Shown: positions 32,606 through 42,869 of the stretch, piece after piece
Position numbering within the stretch: the stretch's first letter is position 1
Layout: each line of letters starts with the position of its first letter
Origin: Leifsonia psychrotolerans
GTDB lineage: Bacteria > Actinomycetota > Actinomycetes > Actinomycetales > Microbacteriaceae
Direction of reading: 5' to 3'
Assembly: GCF_013410665.1 (NCBI RefSeq)
Contig: NZ_JACCFM010000001.1
Coordinates: forward strand, 124,001-188,000
DNA: 64,000 bases
Translations under genes and position numbers: made by a program
The notes under the pieces: generated by a model
Told to the model about the DNA's origin: nothing
Databases searched by the model: none
Seen by the model: the letters and a program-made list of their open reading frames with translations, nothing else

Positions 32606-33760
32606 ATGGCCGTCACATTGCGTGCACTCCAGACCGCGATTCCTCCAACGATCCTGGTGCAAGACCAGGTCCGCGATGTTTTCGTCGCCCAACCAGGACT
32701 CAGCCGCCTCGCCCAACGCCTCGTCGCAACCTCGTTCAACATGTCGGGGATCGAGACCCGGCGCACGGTGATTTCGGAGCTCTCGCTCGAGGCCGATGTC
32801 GAGAATCCTCAGTTCTATGACCCGGCGACTTCGGAGTTGCTGGCACCGAGCACCCGGGTGCGCAATGAGCTGTACATCGTCGAAGCCACGAAGCTCTTCG
32901 TCGAGGCCGGGAGACTCGCGCTGCAGAACTGTCCGGGGATCGAGGCGGCCGACGTCACACATGTGGTGACCGTCTCCTGCACGGGCTTCTATGCGCCGGG
33001 CCCCGACTATATGCTCGTGCGGGAGTTGGGGCTCTCTCCCTCTACCCAGCGTTACCATCTCGGTTTCATGGGCTGTTATGCGGCGATGCCCGCGTTGCGC
33101 ACGGCGAAACAGTTTGTCGAAGCCGACCCGAACGCCGTCGTGCTCGTGGTCAGTGCCGAGCTGTGCTCCTTGCACCTGCGCACCTCCAACGATCCCGACA
33201 CCATCGTGGCTTCCTCGCTGTTCGCCGACGGCGCCGCAGCGGGAATCGTGAGTGCCCGCCCACCCGCGCCGGGCGAGACCGCTCTTCACCTCGACGTCTT
33301 CGAGACTGTGATCACCCCAGTCGGCGAAGGCGACATGGCCTGGAAGATCGGCGACGAAGGGTTTGAAATGGTGCTGAGCAGCTATGTGCCTCACATCATC
33401 GATGAACATATCGAAGGGGCCCTCACACCGCTGTTGGCGCAGGATGCCACGCTGCGCGAGTGCATTGCTCCGGGCGGACGGCTCGATGTCGCGACAGACA
33501 TCGCACACTGGGCGATCCACCCCGGGGGGCGCAGCATTCTCGATAAAACCGAGGCGAAGTTGGAACTGCGTGAGGAACAGCTGGCACCGTCCCGCGAGAT
33601 CCTGCGCCGCTACGGCAATATGTCGAGTGCAACGGTGCTGTTCGTCTTGAAGGCGATCGTCGATGCCCCGACCGTTGCCGACGGCGAGCGGGTCTGCGCA
33701 CTGGCCTTCGGTCCGGGACTCACTGTCGAATCCGGCCTGCTCACCGTGGCGCGCGGGTAA
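32606..33760 (+). CDS. Type III polyketide synthase (chalcone/alkylresorcinol synthase-like)
   Basis: A 384-residue ketosynthase homodimer subunit. The catalytic triad is clear: Cys125 in VTVSCTGFYAPG, His305 in HWAIHPGGRSILD, and Asn338 in RRYGNMSSATVLF. It condenses malonyl-CoA onto a starter CoA without an acyl carrier protein. With the downstream methyltransferase (14-base gap) and flavin monooxygenase (8-base overlap) it forms a three-gene cassette like srsABC of Streptomyces griseus, which makes methylated phenolic lipids and quinones. The starter, and hence the product, cannot be read from sequence; tetrahydroxynaphthalene synthesis is an alternative. Confidence 0.92.
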   Translation: MAVTLRALQTAIPPTILVQDQVRDVFVAQPGLSRLAQRLVATSFNMSGIETRRTVISELSLEADVENPQFYDPATSELLAPSTRVRNELYIVEATKLFVEAGRLALQNCPGIEAADVTHVVTVSCTGFYAPGPDYMLVRELGLSPSTQRYHLGFMGCYAAMPALRTAKQFVEADPNAVVLVVSAELCSLHLRTSNDPDTIVASSLFADGAAAGIVSARPPAPGETALHLDVFETVITPVGEGDMAWKIGDEGFEMVLSSYVPHIIDEHIEGALTPLLAQDATLRECIAPGGRLDVATDIAHWAIHPGGRSILDKTEAKLELREEQLAPSREILRRYGNMSSATVLFVLKAIVDAPTVADGERVCALAFGPGLTVESGLLTVARG

Positions 33761-33774
33761 GGACGGCGAGGAGC

Positions 33775-34491
33775 ATGCGGTCCTTGCGGGTGCGGGACGA
33801 CGACGCCGTCGAGCTCATGGATAGCCCCGACTGTGACCCCGTGCGCCTCGAACGCACCTACGCGAGCTTTCCCGTCGTCAACGCGGTGGTCTCGGGCTGG
33901 CGACAGATCTATCGACGCGACATCCGCCCGCTGCTGCACGTCGACCAGCCGCGCACACTGCTCGATATCGGTGCGGGAGGCGGCGATCTCGCCCGGTCGC
34001 TGACGACGTGGGCGCGACAGGACGGGCTGCGGTTGCATGTGACGGCCATCGATCCGGATGCGCGGGCTCACACCTATGCGCTTGCGCAGCCGGCACAGCC
34101 CGGCTTGACCTTTCGACGTGCGTTCAGCTCGGAGCTGGTTGGTGAGGGCGCCCGTTTCGACATCGTCGTCTCGAATCATGTTCTCCATCACCTGACCGCG
34201 CGCGAGCTGGGCGGGCTGCTGTTCGACTCGGAACGGCTCTGTCGGCAGGTGGTTCTGCACGCCGACATCGAACGCAGCCGGCTGGGCTACCTGGGGTTCG
34301 GGTTGGCAACCTGGCCCTTCTTTCGCGACTCTTACATTCGCCCCGACGGCCTCACCTCGATCAGGCGCAGCTTCACGGTCGACGAATTACGCGCGGTGCT
34401 GACTGTGGCCGGACTGTCGAGGTGGTGGGTGACTCGGGAGGTGCCATCCCGCTACCTGCTGCGTTATTCCACGGGGGGCACGGGTGCCTGA
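33775..34491 (+). CDS. Class I SAM-dependent methyltransferase of the type III PKS cassette
   Basis: A 238-residue methyltransferase with SAM motif I LLDIGAGGGDLARSL (about 61-75), the acidic loop VTAIDPDARA, and motif IV FDIVVSNHVLHHL. GGCGAGGAGC precedes the ATG. It lies 14 bases after the polyketide synthase and overlaps the monooxygenase by 8 bases. By analogy with SrsB it may methylate the polyketide resorcinol ring, but that is inference from position. Confidence 0.88.
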   Translation: MRSLRVRDDDAVELMDSPDCDPVRLERTYASFPVVNAVVSGWRQIYRRDIRPLLHVDQPRTLLDIGAGGGDLARSLTTWARQDGLRLHVTAIDPDARAHTYALAQPAQPGLTFRRAFSSELVGEGARFDIVVSNHVLHHLTARELGGLLFDSERLCRQVVLHADIERSRLGYLGFGLATWPFFRDSYIRPDGLTSIRRSFTVDELRAVLTVAGLSRWWVTREVPSRYLLRYSTGGTGA

Positions 34492-35758
34492 CTCTCCCGA
34501 TGCGGAGGCTCGTCTGCGCGACGTCATCATCGTCGGTGCAGGCCCGGTTGGCATGATGCTGGCCTGCCAACTCGCGGTGCGCGGACTCGACATTGTCGTG
34601 GTGGAACGGCGCACCGAGCCGTCGCTGTTGTCGCGGGCGATCGGTATCCATCCGCCTGGGCTGCGTGCTCTCGAACAGATCGGGGTACTCGACGACCTGC
34701 TGGCCGACGCGGTGAAGATCTCCGAGGGCGAGGTCAGTTGCGACGGAGCCCTGATGGGGCGGCTCTCATTCACGCGAGTCGGTGGGCGGCATCCGTTCGT
34801 TGCCGCCCTGCCCCAGTACGAGACGGAGTCGCTACTGCGCGCACGTTTTGCCCAGCTCTGTCCCGGCGGTTTGCGCGAGGGGGTGACGGTTTCAGGCCTC
34901 CTCGATCAGGGGGACCGTGTGGAGTTACACACCACCGACGTCGGATCCGGCACCGAGTCGGGAGTCCGCTCGTTCTGCGGGCGCTTCGTCGTCGGCGCTG
35001 ACGGCGCACGCAGTCGGGTGCGGGCAGCGGCGGGAATCGGCTGGCGTACCTACGGGCGGGGCGCGAGCTATCTGATGGCGGACCTCGCCGACCGGGGAGT
35101 TCGAAGCAGTACCGCCCGGTTGTTCTTCGAACGCGCGGGAGTGGTCGAGTCGTTCCCTCTGCCCGCGGGTCGACGCCGCTGGGTGGCGTTGACGGAAAGT
35201 CTCATGCTGGATTCCTCCGTCAGCGACCTGGCAGCCCTCATTCGCGATCGTGTGGGAGAGGATGCCGTCGGTCGCGGTGGCGGCACGACTCCGGACGGTG
35301 CTGACGGTGCTTCCGATGTTGCACGGGCGGCCGGCGATCGACGCGCGCCCGCGAGTGCGTTCGCGGTGCAGCAGCGTCTGGCCGACCGCATGGTCTCGGG
35401 TCGGGTGGTGCTCGTCGGGGATGCCGCGCACGAGATCAGCCCGATCGGAGGGCAGGGCATGAACCTCGGCTGGCTCGACGCTGTCGCGCTCGCCCCGGTG
35501 CTCGAGTTGGCGCTGCAACCGGGACCGAGCGACCAGCGCGCCGCGGCTGCCGCACGTGCTGCGGCGGCGCTCGCCGGGTACGAGCGTACGCGTCTGCGTG
35601 CAGCGCGCATGGCGGTGCGGCAGGCCGGCTTCAATATGGCCATGGGGCGCCCGGCCACTGGCATCCGTCTGACGGCGCGGAACGCGCTCGTGCGCACTCT
35701 GGCGCTGCCGCCGACCCGTGGCCTGCTCGCCCGGGCGTTCACGATGCGCTGGCTCTGA
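34484..35758 (+). CDS. FAD-dependent monooxygenase (aromatic hydroxylase type)
   Basis: A 424-residue flavoprotein. It has a Rossmann start VIIVGAGPVGMMLACQLAVRGLDIVVVERR, the FVVGADGARSRVR motif, and GDAAHEISPIGGQGMNLGWLDA for FAD ribose binding, the standard p-hydroxybenzoate hydroxylase set. GTG is the start, with GGGGGG upstream. It overlaps the methyltransferase by 8 bases, so translation is coupled. In the phenolic-lipid model it would hydroxylate the ring towards a quinone, the role of SrsC. Confidence 0.9.
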   Translation: MPDSPDAEARLRDVIIVGAGPVGMMLACQLAVRGLDIVVVERRTEPSLLSRAIGIHPPGLRALEQIGVLDDLLADAVKISEGEVSCDGALMGRLSFTRVGGRHPFVAALPQYETESLLRARFAQLCPGGLREGVTVSGLLDQGDRVELHTTDVGSGTESGVRSFCGRFVVGADGARSRVRAAAGIGWRTYGRGASYLMADLADRGVRSSTARLFFERAGVVESFPLPAGRRRWVALTESLMLDSSVSDLAALIRDRVGEDAVGRGGGTTPDGADGASDVARAAGDRRAPASAFAVQQRLADRMVSGRVVLVGDAAHEISPIGGQGMNLGWLDAVALAPVLELALQPGPSDQRAAAAARAAAALAGYERTRLRAARMAVRQAGFNMAMGRPATGIRLTARNALVRTLALPPTRGLLARAFTMRWL

Positions 35759-37496: not shown

Positions 37497-38945
37497 ATGA
37501 TCAATCGTCGAACCTTCCTGCTGGGCACGGCGTCCGGTCTGACCCTGGCGGCGTTGACCGCGTGCACAGCCACCCCCGAGCCGACCCTCTCGCCGGTGCC
37601 GACCGGCTCGCCCTCGCCATCTCCGATTCCCACCCCGCTCGCCGTGAAGCGCACCAATTGGTCGGCGGACCCGTTCGCGGGGGGCTCTTTCAGCTATCAG
37701 AGCGTGGGGTCGATGCCCGAGCAACGCACCGCGTTGGGCGTTCCCGTGCAGGGCCGCATCTTCCTCGCCGGCGAGGCCGTCTCTGAGTCATCGCCCGGCA
37801 CGGTGCAGGGCGCCCTGGAAACCGGTCGCGATGCCGCAACGGCCCTGATCGACGTGGGCGCGGCGGGCGAGAAGGTCGCGGTCATCGGCGCCGGCCTGGC
37901 CGGAATCACCGCGGCCCGCCAGCTCGTCGCAGCGGGGTTCGACGTGATGGTGCTGGAAGCGCGCGACCGCATCGGTGGACGGATCGACACCGTGACCGGC
38001 TCCGACTGGCCGTTCCCGATCGAGTTGGGGGCCTCATTCATCCGCTCGAGCACGTCAACGACTCTCGACGCTGCGCTCTCGGCGGCCGACGTCGCGACGG
38101 CGCCGTTTGTGACACCCGCTGAAACCCGCACCCCCACGGGTCAGGTCGTTGAGGCGCCCCCGACCGGCCCTGACCTGCTGACCGCCGCGCTCACCTGGGC
38201 TGCGGCCCAGCAGCAGGATGTCTCGGTGGCAGCTGCGCTGACCGGTTCCGGCGCCCCCGAACTGCCCACGGCGTCCGCCACGGCCGCGCCCACCGCGAAC
38301 GCCGACTTCAGCGCCACGGATGCCGATTGGCTGAGTCTTGAGCTCGCCTCCTCGCTCGACCTGGTGACCGGTGCCGCGCCCGACGCCGTCTCCGCCTGGT
38401 TCGCCTCGACGCCGAGTGAGATGGCCGCCGCCGACGCGGACGCCCGCATCGTGCTGGGTGGTTTCGGAAACCTTCTGACACGCGATGCGGCAGCGCTCGA
38501 TGTGATGCTCAGCACTGTGGTCACGCGCATCGCCCATACGGCGGAGCAGGTGAGCTTGCGGCTGGCCACCGGCGAGTCGGTGAAGGTCGACCGCGTGATC
38601 GTGACGGTTCCGCTCGGGGTGTTGAAGGCCGAGGCGATCGAATTCGATCCGCCGTTGCCGTTCTCGCATCGGGGTGCGATCGCCGCCCTCGGCATGGGCG
38701 TGCTCGACAAGGTCTGGCTGCGCTTCACGGAGCCGTTCTGGTCGACCGAAGCCCCGCTCTGGAACACGGTCGGCGGCGGTGACTTCTCGGTCTGGGTCAA
38801 CCTCATGCCGCTCACCGGACAGCCGGTTCTGATGGGGGTGGTCACCGCGCAGAGCGCGCTGAAGCTGGCCTCCCAGAGCGACGATGAGGTTCTTGCGGTG
38901 GCGCTTGCGAGCCTGGAACCCTTCGCGGCGCACTCGGGATCGTAG
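37497..38945 (+). CDS. Flavin amine oxidase with apparently circularly permuted domain order
   Basis: A 482-residue exported flavoprotein. The N-terminus is a Tat-type lipoprotein signal (INRRTFLLG, lipobox LTAC, Cys23), then a Pro/Ser/Thr linker (24-48). Residues 50-117 (KRTNWSADPFAGGSFSYQS, then GRIFLAGEAVSESSPGTVQGALETGRDAA) match what is normally the C-terminal FAD-binding end of amine oxidases. Only after it comes the normal N-terminal Rossmann motif GAGLAG (131-136) with GGRID (160-164). The protein ends at SDDEVLAVALASLEPFA, exactly where the missing C-terminal piece would normally begin. All parts are present once. Its 3' end overlaps the convergent membrane-protein gene by 104 bases. 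Confidence 0.85.
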   Translation: MINRRTFLLGTASGLTLAALTACTATPEPTLSPVPTGSPSPSPIPTPLAVKRTNWSADPFAGGSFSYQSVGSMPEQRTALGVPVQGRIFLAGEAVSESSPGTVQGALETGRDAATALIDVGAAGEKVAVIGAGLAGITAARQLVAAGFDVMVLEARDRIGGRIDTVTGSDWPFPIELGASFIRSSTSTTLDAALSAADVATAPFVTPAETRTPTGQVVEAPPTGPDLLTAALTWAAAQQQDVSVAAALTGSGAPELPTASATAAPTANADFSATDADWLSLELASSLDLVTGAAPDAVSAWFASTPSEMAAADADARIVLGGFGNLLTRDAAALDVMLSTVVTRIAHTAEQVSLRLATGESVKVDRVIVTVPLGVLKAEAIEFDPPLPFSHRGAIAALGMGVLDKVWLRFTEPFWSTEAPLWNTVGGGDFSVWVNLMPLTGQPVLMGVVTAQSALKLASQSDDEVLAVALASLEPFAAHSGS

Positions 38946-39597
38946 ACGCGCGGGGCCGGGCCTCCCACCAGAGCGACAGTGTGAGCCGCGACGTGGCGAT
39001 GAGCAATGCGGCGATGCCGCCGATGATCGCGAGGCAGATTAAGCAGTACACCGCGGTCTCGGCGAGACTGACCTGGCTGTTGTCGAGAAAAAAGTAAGGG
39101 TACCAGCCCACAATCGACCCACGCACGAGCGTGAAGGCCCCCCAGGCGAGCGGGTACAGCAGCACCCAGCCGATCAGGCGCCAGGAGACCCGCGTCTTGT
39201 GTGGGTCGAAGAGCCAATCGATCAGCGCGAAGGCGGGAATCCAGAAGTGCAGCAGCTGATCCGACCACGGCACGTCGATGCGATAAGCGCGCGTCGACGA
39301 TTGCACCACCATGATCGCAAAGACGATTCCCGACACGATGATGTAGGTCGTGACGAAAGTGCGCAGCACGTCAAGCCAGGGCGGATCGTCAGCCCGTCGA
39401 AAGGCGAGTGCGGCCGCGACCACGAACATGACGACGGCGGCGATCGCGCTCTGAATCGTGAAGTAGGTGAAGAAGTTGTTTGCACCGAATGACTTGAATC
39501 CGAGCACGTAATTGAAATTACTGATCAAGCCGGTTATTCCCGCGGCGGCAAGAAGAAGCCGCCCCACGCCGAAGCCCTGACGGACGGTCAGGCGCAT
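38842..39597 (-). CDS. Pr6Pr-family membrane protein
   Basis: A protein of about 251 residues with six to seven hydrophobic segments and the family blocks FNYVLGFKSFGANNFFTYFTIQS, LLHFWIPAFALIDWLFDPHK and GWYPYFFLDNSQV. The ATG at 39597 begins next to the first helix; the open frame runs to 39717 through low-complexity sequence and was not used. The last ~40 residues (RPRASTIPSAPRRVPGSQ onward) lie antisense to the amine oxidase and look like read-through past a lost stop. Function of the family is not established. Confidence 0.8.
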   Translation of the reverse strand: MRLTVRQGFGVGRLLLAAAGITGLISNFNYVLGFKSFGANNFFTYFTIQSAIAAVVMFVVAAALAFRRADDPPWLDVLRTFVTTYIIVSGIVFAIMVVQSSTRAYRIDVPWSDQLLHFWIPAFALIDWLFDPHKTRVSWRLIGWVLLYPLAWGAFTLVRGSIVGWYPYFFLDNSQVSLAETAVYCLICLAIIGGIAALLIATSRLTLSLWWEARPRASTIPSAPRRVPGSQAPPQEPHRRSGRPASARSAR

Positions 39598-39920
39598 GGG
39601 GCCCGACCCGGATTCCGACGTGCTCTCATGGGTCAACGCTACGCCAGCATCCGCAGTGAGAAGTCCGCGAGACGAGGGTGCGGGGTTCGCGTGGGGGCGG
39701 GGGCGCGTCACACACACGCTCCCAACGCGATTACAATCGTTCCGGCGAAGACTTCGGCCCTCGCCTCTTCTGGCTCATCAAGAATGCTGAGCGGCGCAGT
39801 GCGCTCGATGTGACACAGCGCAGACGACCGCCGCGTGACGGCGTGCCCACAACCCCCCATTTGGGGCTACGCACGGGCGTGTTCAGCCCGCTAGATTCTA
39901 TTCAGCCGACAAGGAGATCC

Positions 39921-40754
39921 GTGACCGAAACTCTGAGCATGCGCCAGCGCTGCGCGGGCCAGTCGGTCCTTGAGAATCTCGTGCGGCACCAGGCTGATGC
40001 CCCGCCCCGCTCAAGGATCGCGCGATTCTTCGGTCGCTCCCCGTTGGGCGCCGAGGCTTCGGCTTGGTATCAAGCAGCGCAGGGCGAAATCGCGATGGGC
40101 CGCATCCTCGACCAGCTGCCGCCCGAGTGGACGGTGCTTCATGCGCTCCCAGCCGGCCTCAGCGCGCTCGACATCGACCACCTCATTATTGGTCCGTGCG
40201 GCATATTCACAGTGAATACGAAGCACCACAGCGACACCGAGATTTGGGTTGCGGAGTCGACGCTTCTGGTCGATGGGCAGATGCGCAACTACATTCCTGA
40301 CGCCGAGACCGAGGCACAACGAGTCTCGGCCATCATCGAGGAGCGGATGCCGCTTCCCGCGCCGGTGCAGCCCGTCGTCGCATTCGTCGATTCGAAGCGC
40401 GTGACGATCCGGCAGAAGCCCGCGCAGGTGAAGGTTGTCGACGCGTGGCAGATTCGACGGTGGCTGACCAACCTCACTCCGGTGCTCAGTCCGACAGAAC
40501 AGCATCAAGTCGCAGAATTGCTGGACGACCCGGGCACCTGGCACGAGACCGGGCCGGTTCAGATTGTGCCAGGTGAGGCAGTGCGGCACCCCGGCGTGCG
40601 TACTCCGGCCGGCCTGACGGCCACGTTCGAGCTGCTCGCCACCGAGGTGGATGCCGCTGCCGCGCGTCGCAGAGTCTGGAAGCTGGCCGCCTACGCTGCG
40701 CTCGTGCTCACGCCGGTGATGGCGCTGCCATACCTGCTGAGTCTGCTCGGCTGA
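39921..40754 (+). CDS. NERD-domain protein (nuclease-related)
   Basis: A 277-residue protein. The NERD core is visible: GEIAMGRILDQLPPEWTVLHALPAGLSALDIDHLIIGPCGIFTVNTKHHSD, with the Asp, the hydrophobic strand and the Lys expected for a PD-(D/E)XK-like fold. A single C-terminal membrane helix (LAAYAALVLTPVMALPYLLSLLG) would tether it. GTG at 39921 follows a strong AAGGAG; upstream in-frame codons are not used. The actual nuclease activity of such proteins is mostly untested. Confidence 0.87.
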   Translation: MTETLSMRQRCAGQSVLENLVRHQADAPPRSRIARFFGRSPLGAEASAWYQAAQGEIAMGRILDQLPPEWTVLHALPAGLSALDIDHLIIGPCGIFTVNTKHHSDTEIWVAESTLLVDGQMRNYIPDAETEAQRVSAIIEERMPLPAPVQPVVAFVDSKRVTIRQKPAQVKVVDAWQIRRWLTNLTPVLSPTEQHQVAELLDDPGTWHETGPVQIVPGEAVRHPGVRTPAGLTATFELLATEVDAAAARRRVWKLAAYAALVLTPVMALPYLLSLLG

Positions 40755-40774
40755 GTCAGCTCAGCTCGGTCGGC

Positions 40775-41032
40775 TCAGCTGAGCGGTCGGCCTCGGCGAA
40801 CGGGCTTCTTGGGGTCTTTGTTCCCCTGGATCCAGAGGAAGTGAGCGCGCACAGACACCGCTCCGCCGAGAACGAGCGCGACGACGGCGATCGGCAACAG
40901 CACGCCCACGAAGAGGTTCTGGGCGAGGGCGTTCACGATGAGCAGCATCACGGCGAAGCTGCTGAGCGAAAATCCGGTGATCGCGCAGGTGTTGAAAGAC
41001 CAGTTCTTCACGTTCTTCACGGCATGGATCAC
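40775..41032 (-). CDS. Small two-helix membrane protein, unknown function
   Basis: A protein of about 85 residues with two hydrophobic helices (TGFSLSSFAVMLLIVNALAQNLFVG and LLPIAVVALVLGGAVSVRA) and a basic C-terminus (NKDPKKPVRRGRPLS). The GTG at 41032 with GAGGGG upstream is the preferred start; a GTG at 41107 would add 25 residues. No family was recognised. It is convergent with the NERD gene. Confidence 0.5.
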   Translation of the reverse strand: MIHAVKNVKNWSFNTCAITGFSLSSFAVMLLIVNALAQNLFVGVLLPIAVVALVLGGAVSVRAHFLWIQGNKDPKKPVRRGRPLS

Positions 41033-41275: not shown

Positions 41276-42253
41276 CTACGGCGTCAGCAGAATCTTGCCA
41301 ACGTGCTCGGACGCCTCCATCCGACGGTGGGCCGCGGCCGCATCGGCGAACGAAAACCGGCTGTCGATCACGGGGTGGAACTCTCCGCTGGCCAGCCACG
41401 GCCAGACATCCGCCTGGATGCCCTGCATGATCGCGGCCTTCTGCACGTGCGGCCGGGCGCGCAGCGTGGTGCCCCAGAGTCGTCCGCGCTTCTGCATGAG
41501 CCGGAACAGGTCGAAGTCGGCGTTCACACCGCTCTGATTGGCAATCACCATGATGCGTCCGTCGACGGCCAGCGCGCTCACGTTGTCGGCCGCAGAGGCG
41601 CCACCGACGATATCGAGGATGACATCGGCGCCGTGCCCGTCTGTGGCGTCCCTCAGTGCGTCGGCAAACCGCTCGGTGCGATAGTTGATCAGAATGTCGG
41701 CCCCGAGCCGACGGCACGCCTCGAGCTTCTCGGGGCTTCCGGCAGTGACTGCCACCCGAGCGCCGCTCAATCGCGCCAGCTGAATGGCAGTCGTACCGAT
41801 TCCGCTCGCGCCACCGTGCACGAGAACGGTCTCGCCGCGCTGCAACCGGGCGCTCTGGAACAGGTTCGACCAGACAGTGGCGACCGTTTCAGGCAGGCCC
41901 GCCGCATCGATGAGATCGACCGAATCCGGAACACGCAGCACGAGATCCTCATTCACGACGGCTTGTTCGGCGTATCCACCACCGCCGAGCAGAGCACAGA
42001 CCCGATCACCGACGGCGAAGCGTGTGACCGCAGGGCCGATCTCGGTGACGGTGCCGGACACCTCCAGGCCGGGCCACGGCGGCGTTCCGGCCGGCGACGG
42101 ATATCGGCCGAGCCGCTGCGCGATATCTGCTCGGTTCACCCCGCACGCCACCACTGCGATACGGATGTCGTGAGCCCCGACGAGCGGTTCTGGCACGTTT
42201 TCCACACTCAAGTTTTCGGGACCGCCAGGGGACCTCACCAGAATCGCACGCAT
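41276..42253 (-). CDS. NAD(P)H:quinone oxidoreductase, PIG3/QOR-type MDR
   Basis: A 325-residue zinc-independent medium-chain dehydrogenase. The N-terminal domain (RAILVRSPGGPENLSVENVPEP) lacks the zinc ligands, VACGVNRADIAQRLGRYP is typical of the p53-inducible PIG3 subgroup, and the cofactor loop is VHGGASGIGTTAIQLARLSG. The ATG at 42253 is the first codon of the homologous region. It reduces quinones or enals with NADPH. It is divergent from the UPF0303 gene. Confidence 0.9.
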   Translation of the reverse strand: MRAILVRSPGGPENLSVENVPEPLVGAHDIRIAVVACGVNRADIAQRLGRYPSPAGTPPWPGLEVSGTVTEIGPAVTRFAVGDRVCALLGGGGYAEQAVVNEDLVLRVPDSVDLIDAAGLPETVATVWSNLFQSARLQRGETVLVHGGASGIGTTAIQLARLSGARVAVTAGSPEKLEACRRLGADILINYRTERFADALRDATDGHGADVILDIVGGASAADNVSALAVDGRIMVIANQSGVNADFDLFRLMQKRGRLWGTTLRARPHVQKAAIMQGIQADVWPWLASGEFHPVIDSRFSFADAAAAHRRMEASEHVGKILLTP

Positions 42254-42386
42254 GCGCCCAGCGTACGCGTGGGCTGGCCTGCGGCGCCACGGTGTGCGCG
42301 GTTCGTGGCCCAAGCGGGGGTTGCCGTACGGTGGAGATTCGCTGAATCAGCGCATCCGCCCCCAGCCGCCCGAGAAGGAGCCCGTG

Positions 42387-42869
42387 ATGACCGACCGCCA
42401 CGACGAAGAGGCCGCGCTCGCGACGCTGCTTGAACAGGAACGAGAGATTCAGTTCAGCGCATTCACCCACGCCGACGCGTGGACAGTCGGTCTGCACCTC
42501 GTCGAGTTGGCCAGCGAACGGCTGCATCCGGTGGCGATTGCGATCATGCTCGGCGACCAACGGGTGTTTCATGCCGGCCTGCCCGGAGCATCCGCCGACA
42601 ATGACGACTGGCTGGAACGCAAGTTTCGTGTGGTGCGCCGGTTCGGTCATTCATCGCTTGCCGTCGGCACCGATTTTCGGTCGCGTGGTGCGAACTTCGA
42701 CACGGATTCCCGGCTCGACGTCGCCGCCTTTGCCGCGCACGGCGGGGCGTTCCCGATTCGCGTGAACGGCATGCAGGTGGGAGTGGTGGGCGTCTCGGGG
42801 TTGCCGCAGCGCGATGATCACGCGCTCGTGATCGAGGCCCTGATCGCCCATCGGGACCGCGCGAGCTGA
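42387..42869 (+). CDS. UPF0303/HbpS-like protein (haem-degrading domain family)
   Basis: A 160-residue cytoplasmic protein. The pattern AWTVGLHLVELASERLHPVAIAIMLGDQRVFHAGLPGASADNDDWLERK and AFAAHGGAFPIRVNGMQVGVVGVSGLPQRDDHALV fits the UPF0303 branch of the GlcG/HbpS fold. AAGGAG precedes GTGATG; the ATG at 42387 is chosen, the GTG three bases earlier is equally possible. Relatives bind haem or corrinoids; the true function is uncertain. Confidence 0.87.
   Translation: MTDRHDEEAALATLLEQEREIQFSAFTHADAWTVGLHLVELASERLHPVAIAIMLGDQRVFHAGLPGASADNDDWLERKFRVVRRFGHSSLAVGTDFRSRGANFDTDSRLDVAAFAAHGGAFPIRVNGMQVGVVGVSGLPQRDDHALVIEALIAHRDRAS

Follow-up and report, generated by a model that had tools for sequence, protein, structure and literature searches.

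Whether a flavin amine oxidase can occur in nature with its chain order rotated is the question raised by one gene of Leifsonia psychrotolerans. The gene is a coding sequence of 482 codons plus stop (37497..38945, + strand; from the open reading frame (ORF) list and its translation) within a window of 64,000 nucleotides, positions 124,001 to 188,000 of contig NZ_JACCFM010000001.1, to which all coordinates refer. A first-pass annotation of the letters alone had described it as a circularly permuted enzyme, and the ORF coordinates, the GAGLAG motif at residues 131-136 and the series WSADPF...GEAV...GALETG at about residues 50-117 on which it relied are all present in the sequence. We consider it very probable that the 482-residue protein is a naturally circularly permuted member of the PF01593 flavin amine oxidases, and one that is most likely loaded with flavin adenine dinucleotide (FAD), active, exported by the twin-arginine translocation (Tat) pathway and lipid-anchored.

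In the standard order of PF01593, the Rossmann domain comes first and the segment closing the FAD site comes last. Neither the 482-residue protein nor its subfamily follows this arrangement, and the rotated order makes it a permuted rather than a standard member of the family. The whole protein scores 207 bits against the PF01593 profile (curated cut-off 19.8). Scanned separately, as the first-pass annotation had proposed, both halves match in swapped order: residues 44-124 cover profile positions 370-443 of 443 (E 1.2e-16, 61.6 bits) and residues 125-482 cover positions 1-362 (E 1.3e-44, 153.6 bits), with a gap of seven profile positions between the two matches. Human LSD2 residues 321-375, 482-692 and 699-769 align to residues 107-163, 271-474 and 43-113, respectively; since LSD2 482-692 and 699-769 are matched by 271-474 and 43-113, the two pieces abut in rotated order. 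The idea that every part is present once, but rotated, is thus borne out by the profile halves and by the swapped LSD2 pieces.

The moved closing FAD segment comprises residues 45-118 (37629..37850, +), as delimited by PF01593 positions 370-443 and the LSD2 alignment. Its place ahead of the Rossmann motif is as first described, with the limits of 50-117 given earlier now widened by the profile. The dinucleotide-binding motif GAGLAG (residues 131-136; 37887..37904, +) retains G131, G133 and G136 in 63/63 permuted sequences, and the amine oxidase body, corresponding to PF01593 positions 1-362, spans residues 134-474 (37896..38918, +). A new C-terminal tail, residues 475-482 (38919..38942, +), is assigned from the sequence, the model and the homologue ends. 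The protein does stop at the segment boundary, as had been claimed, with the correction that the break falls after ...ASLEPF, ahead of this tail; close homologues, among the matches listed, stop at about this point, some of them after a short Pro/Thr-rich tail. In the unpermuted relative P0317 the break point lies within ...VLRTIFGSAIPDP..., which is split in the permuted proteins: permuted P0245 ends with the first half of this stretch and starts, past any signal, with its second half. As expected of a natural circular permutation, the parts occur once each in rotated order, the old ends are joined, and homologues exist in both orders.

AlphaFold predicts one confident fold for the whole protein (mean predicted local distance difference test, pLDDT, 91.2; predicted template modelling score, pTM, 0.87), comprising the FAD and substrate domains of PF01593, with pLDDT 93-98 in blocks spanning residues 41-120. 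At the new junction (residues 111-130; 37827..37886, +), the old C-terminal helix is joined to the old N-terminal strand, modelled as helix 103-120 followed by strand 126-130. Counted from the Gly of the helix to the opening Gly of GxGxxG, the spacing is 21 residues in 308/476 and 19 in 146/476 of the permuted rows measured, 13 of the 489 permuted rows not being measurable. When the moved segment was compared alone with known structures, the best 50 of 84 Foldseek matches and the best 50 of 131 aligned chains from VIA all belonged to the amine oxidase superfamily, with weak scores; the best VIA match was Streptomyces L-glutamate oxidase, chain residues 617-673. The structure prediction suggested in the first-pass annotation is therefore amine-oxidase-like and gives no unrelated fold, although the match scores are weak. 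An unrelated domain at residues 45-118 is ruled out by the PF01593 match together with the fragment structure matches. We postulate that the chain opened within the linker ahead of the last FAD-contacting segment and that about 19-21 residues now bridge the old chain ends, which would most likely leave the fold and cofactor site unchanged. In this reconstruction, the chain order comes from the profile and the homologues, and the fold from prediction.

The permuted order is common in the family (Microbacteriaceae) and scattered in the rest of the phylum. A permuted match is found in 36/36 same-genus genomes, although in G021 it is split into two pieces that adjoin each other (3-431 and 427-478). 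Across the family, 130/398 genomes match at E 1e-40, the own genome counted; two of these (G270 and G382) match the body only, the leading segment being absent, which leaves 128/398 genomes permuted. These fall in 28/85 genera, so that the same-order homologues sought in related genera do exist. A stop occurs within six of the family-genome matches; a few matches are partial. An even draw across the phylum yields at least 10/396 permuted genomes at E 1e-50 (the own genome plus four more from the family counted) and one additional fragment match (G1136); this count combines match ranges with class assignments and is a lower bound, with four candidates scored per genome.

Three homologue sets, taken as the best 120 of 999, the best 120 of 291 and the best 120 of 6865 matches, extend this distribution. 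All 120/120 listed rows are permuted in the first set, which was queried with the 482-residue protein and includes it. The second set, from a Kineococcus query across the junction, holds 115/120 listed permuted rows (query included; five with a partial segment), three of normal order and two undetermined, under names including Kineosporia, Actinoplanes, Catenuloplanes and Ilumatobacteraceae. In the third, from a more distant query, 113/120 listed rows are permuted and seven are normal. The three small hidden Markov models used derive from the first set with its 120 rows, which makes the normal-order counts low estimates. Four permuted rows of the third set are labelled as other phyla (P0253, Thermoproteota; P0264, Nonlabens; P0318 and P0348, Pseudomonadota); these are metagenome-assembled and are taken as labels only. 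A scan of named genomes with patterns derived from permuted proteins gave 60 loci, 56 of them permuted (one shortened), two normal (L181, Lentzea; L182, Armatimonadetes) and two not classifiable (L132, L159). Beyond Cryobacterium/Glaciibacter, its permuted loci include Streptomyces, Nocardia, an Amycolatopsis metagenome-assembled genome (MAG) and other actinobacterial MAGs. Plasmid matches in Synechocystis and Haloarcula, covering 92-100% of the permuted query, turned out to be of normal order once translated, their coverage being misleading because the search joins pieces regardless of order; a Nostoc locus (L216) was likewise classed as normal order. A spread of the rotated order beyond Actinomycetota is thus not supported by these matches. 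Such wide conservation in the genus, the family and the three homologue sets supports the earlier suggestion of a distinct subfamily. The source annotations (monoamine oxidase, polyamine oxidase, FAD-dependent oxidoreductase and others) give no hint of the rotation.

The active site can be traced through the rotated chain. W55, G92, E93, GxGxxG, GGR and W433 are invariant in 63/63 permuted sequences. Trp55 (37659..37661, +; alignment A2) faces the Trp of WSTDP in LSD2 and presumably takes the active-site role of LSD1 Trp751. Trp433 (38793..38795, +) faces a Phe in LSD2, and we take LSD1 Trp695 to be its equivalent. Lys405 (38709..38711, +), the presumed flavin-side catalytic lysine, is Lys in 56/63 permuted sequences and faces a Lys of LSD2; its counterparts are presumably LSD1 Lys661 and maize polyamine oxidase Lys300. 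Because these positions are kept, the protein is likely an FAD-binding, active oxidase. The retention of Lys405, Trp433 and Trp55 points most likely to amine oxidation with O2, in which an amine would be converted to an imine or aldehyde and H2O2 would be released outside the cell.

An exported flavoprotein that kept the fold without oxidase activity, for instance a binding or structural lipoprotein, would be in keeping with the variation at the Lys405 position in 7/63 sequences and with the restriction of the conserved neighbours to Cryobacterium/Glaciibacter loci. The invariance of both tryptophans, the GE pair, GxGxxG and GGR argues against this reading, which we regard as unlikely. Still less probable is a domain-swapped dimer, in which the moved segment would complete the neighbouring subunit instead of its own chain: the single-chain model is confident across the segment, the junction and the Rossmann domain, and a short junction of nearly constant length fits closure within one chain. 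Nor does an assembly, frameshift or gene-start artefact of one genome, to which we give almost no credence, account for the gene. Assembly error is excluded by the rotated order in 36/36 same-genus genomes, and the family genomes and many independent records agree. When the window was scanned in all six frames (at least 30 amino acids per frame, E <=1e-3), the closing segment was found once, within ORF 37497-38945, and a laxer scan of 38800-41000 for a second closing segment gave nothing convincing. A second segment or second Rossmann motif is present in 0/535 kept rows (domain E 1e-3; 489 permuted and 46 normal order, duplicates included). Homologues with an extra C-terminal segment, the case that the first-pass annotation had set against its own reading, are accordingly absent among these rows, as are duplication intermediates holding both copies. 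Since many actinobacterial proteins have the same rotated order, often as exported lipoproteins, the comparison is more in keeping with a functional enzyme than with an error.

The number of order changes was estimated from trees of re-ordered sequences; rows whose segment match spanned <=55 residues, or whose length after re-ordering fell outside 280-560, had been dropped beforehand. For 64 permuted plus 21 normal rows, the tree needs two order changes; one with 46 permuted and 26 normal rows needs three, as does a careful tree with 46 permuted and 22 normal rows, for which, as for its approximately unbiased (AU) test, four long-branch normal rows had been dropped. In each of these three trees the starred branches force one change. 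With plasmid and further normal relatives added and six normal-order loci dropped, a tree of 30 permuted and 24 normal rows, the set also used for its AU test, needs seven changes, of which the starred branches force three; here normal-order P0317 and the Haloarcula plasmid locus L215 are placed beside permuted rows. A single change occurs in 0% of 200 bootstrap trees for both the careful and the 30 + 24 tree. The two to seven changes needed by the free trees, the bootstrap result and the placement of P0317 and L215 would favour a permuted order that changed more than once, by independent permutations or by reversions to normal. However, a single permuted clade remains compatible with both AU tests (p 0.21 for the 46 + 22 set, p 0.157 for the 30 + 24 set), the junction length is nearly constant throughout, and many tree forks are unresolved, so we hold repeated change to be a serious possibility but not the favoured one. 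The broader idea that chain order is unstable in this amine oxidase clade, with the same linker break reused or reversed repeatedly, is offered tentatively, as rather doubtful; if true, nature would hold rotated and unrotated versions of the enzyme with little difference in sequence around the junction. Among the plasmid-borne normal-order relatives, L214 (Synechocystis pSYSM) and L215 (Haloarcula), the former sits in an unresolved fork holding both orders.

Ahead of the moved segment, the protein starts with MINRRTFLLGTASGLTLAALTAC, a signal that bears RR and closes with a lipobox-like motif. This Tat-type lipoprotein signal (residues 1-23; 37497..37565, +) carries RRTF near the start, the lipobox LTAC and a putatively lipidated Cys23; it is followed by a Pro/Ser-rich linker (residues 24-44; 37566..37628, +), where mean pLDDT is 55 for residues 21-30 and 69 for residues 31-40. 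Both elements had been proposed in the first-pass annotation and are seen as sequence motifs. The twin-arginine signal and lipobox Cys, like all signal calls here, were identified by motif inspection and regular expressions. By pattern, RR and lipobox occur together in 110/120 rows of the first set, the query among them, with lipobox alone in three and a start too late in seven, and in 68/107 rows of the third set. In the Kineococcus/Actinoplanes set, 105/108 kept rows start <=25 residues from the segment with neither motif, defining a permuted branch without signal (Kineococcus, Actinoplanes, Kineosporia) that starts directly at the moved segment. Of the seven unpermuted relatives listed in the third set, judged by eye, 5/7 have RR and a lipobox-like Cys (P0329, P0336, P0350, P0358, P0359); P0317 has RR only and P0341 starts too late, while the script pattern flagged both motifs only in P0358. 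Because a permuted branch lacks the signal and unpermuted relatives are Tat-lipoprotein-like, permutation and export signal are, as read from these motifs, separate traits. The export of a permuted fold remarked on earlier therefore agrees with the Tat-lipoprotein motifs, but permutation does not produce the export. As judged from the motifs, the protein would fold around FAD in the cytoplasm and cross by Tat, and Cys23 would then tether it outside the membrane.

MAO, LSD1 and the polyamine oxidases are well-studied flavin amine oxidases. Judged by profile and predicted fold, the nearest solved structures are LSD1/LSD2 and the polyamine oxidases, whose whole fold is matched in two pieces; the permuted protein differs in having the closing FAD segment first. 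A profile search of the PDB gave the body only as the best stretch in the best 60 of 241 sequences, as expected because the solved relatives have normal order. The closest normal-order relatives seen, P0329, P0358, P0359 and P0317, share an RR start and the TRW..DP...GEAT segment with the permuted proteins. They differ in carrying the segment at the C-terminus, P0317 matching PF01593 2-443 in one stretch. Streptomyces L-glutamate oxidase (2e1m, 9w54-9w58) resembles the permuted protein in having the matching segment on a separate chain, C; in contrast to it, its order is normal, and we take its chain break to be a proteolytic nick, not a permutation. Engineered circular permutants exist for flavoenzymes such as Old Yellow Enzyme; these are likewise permuted flavoproteins, but man-made and of another fold. 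We know of no natural permutant among flavin amine oxidases, and no description of one was found in the titles and abstract starts listed by searches of open-licence papers. The known part is thus the PF01593 enzyme family, and the new part its permuted chain order. Passages of PMC1282579 concern methyltransferases. An N-terminal closing FAD segment in a bacterial subfamily would show that nature tolerates this break and junction. The lipid anchor would then sit elsewhere on the fold, and ready-made rotated and unrotated pairs would be at hand for studies of folding and Tat export.

No firm indication of the oxidase's substrate comes from the neighbouring genes, and no pathway follows from them. 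In the window, the region upstream of the oxidase holds genes for a type III polyketide synthase, a methyltransferase, an FAD-binding monooxygenase-like protein and a DUF7059 methyltransferase. The first three lie head to tail at 32606-35758, an arrangement that resembles an alkylresorcinol/alkylquinone-type operon; their relatives are found close to the permuted oxidase in 7, 10 and 14 of 60 loci, respectively, one of the 14 being a weak match in a different organism. On the minus strand, an ORF at 38845-39717 overlaps the 3' end of the oxidase gene and encodes a protein with hydrophobic stretches and no Pfam match. In the 60-locus scan, a relative of this unannotated opposite-strand gene lies downstream of the oxidase, at the same side, in 29/29 Cryobacterium/Glaciibacter loci, and the upstream methyltransferase gene is present in 26/29. 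Either conserved neighbour is found in 0/31 other loci, where contig ends may hide some, and the neighbours were set aside as a pathway clue, the conserved ones being confined to Cryobacterium/Glaciibacter loci. Farther along the window lie genes for a NERD-domain protein (39678-40754; domain match) and an HbpS-like protein of a haem-degrading family (42252-42869; family match).
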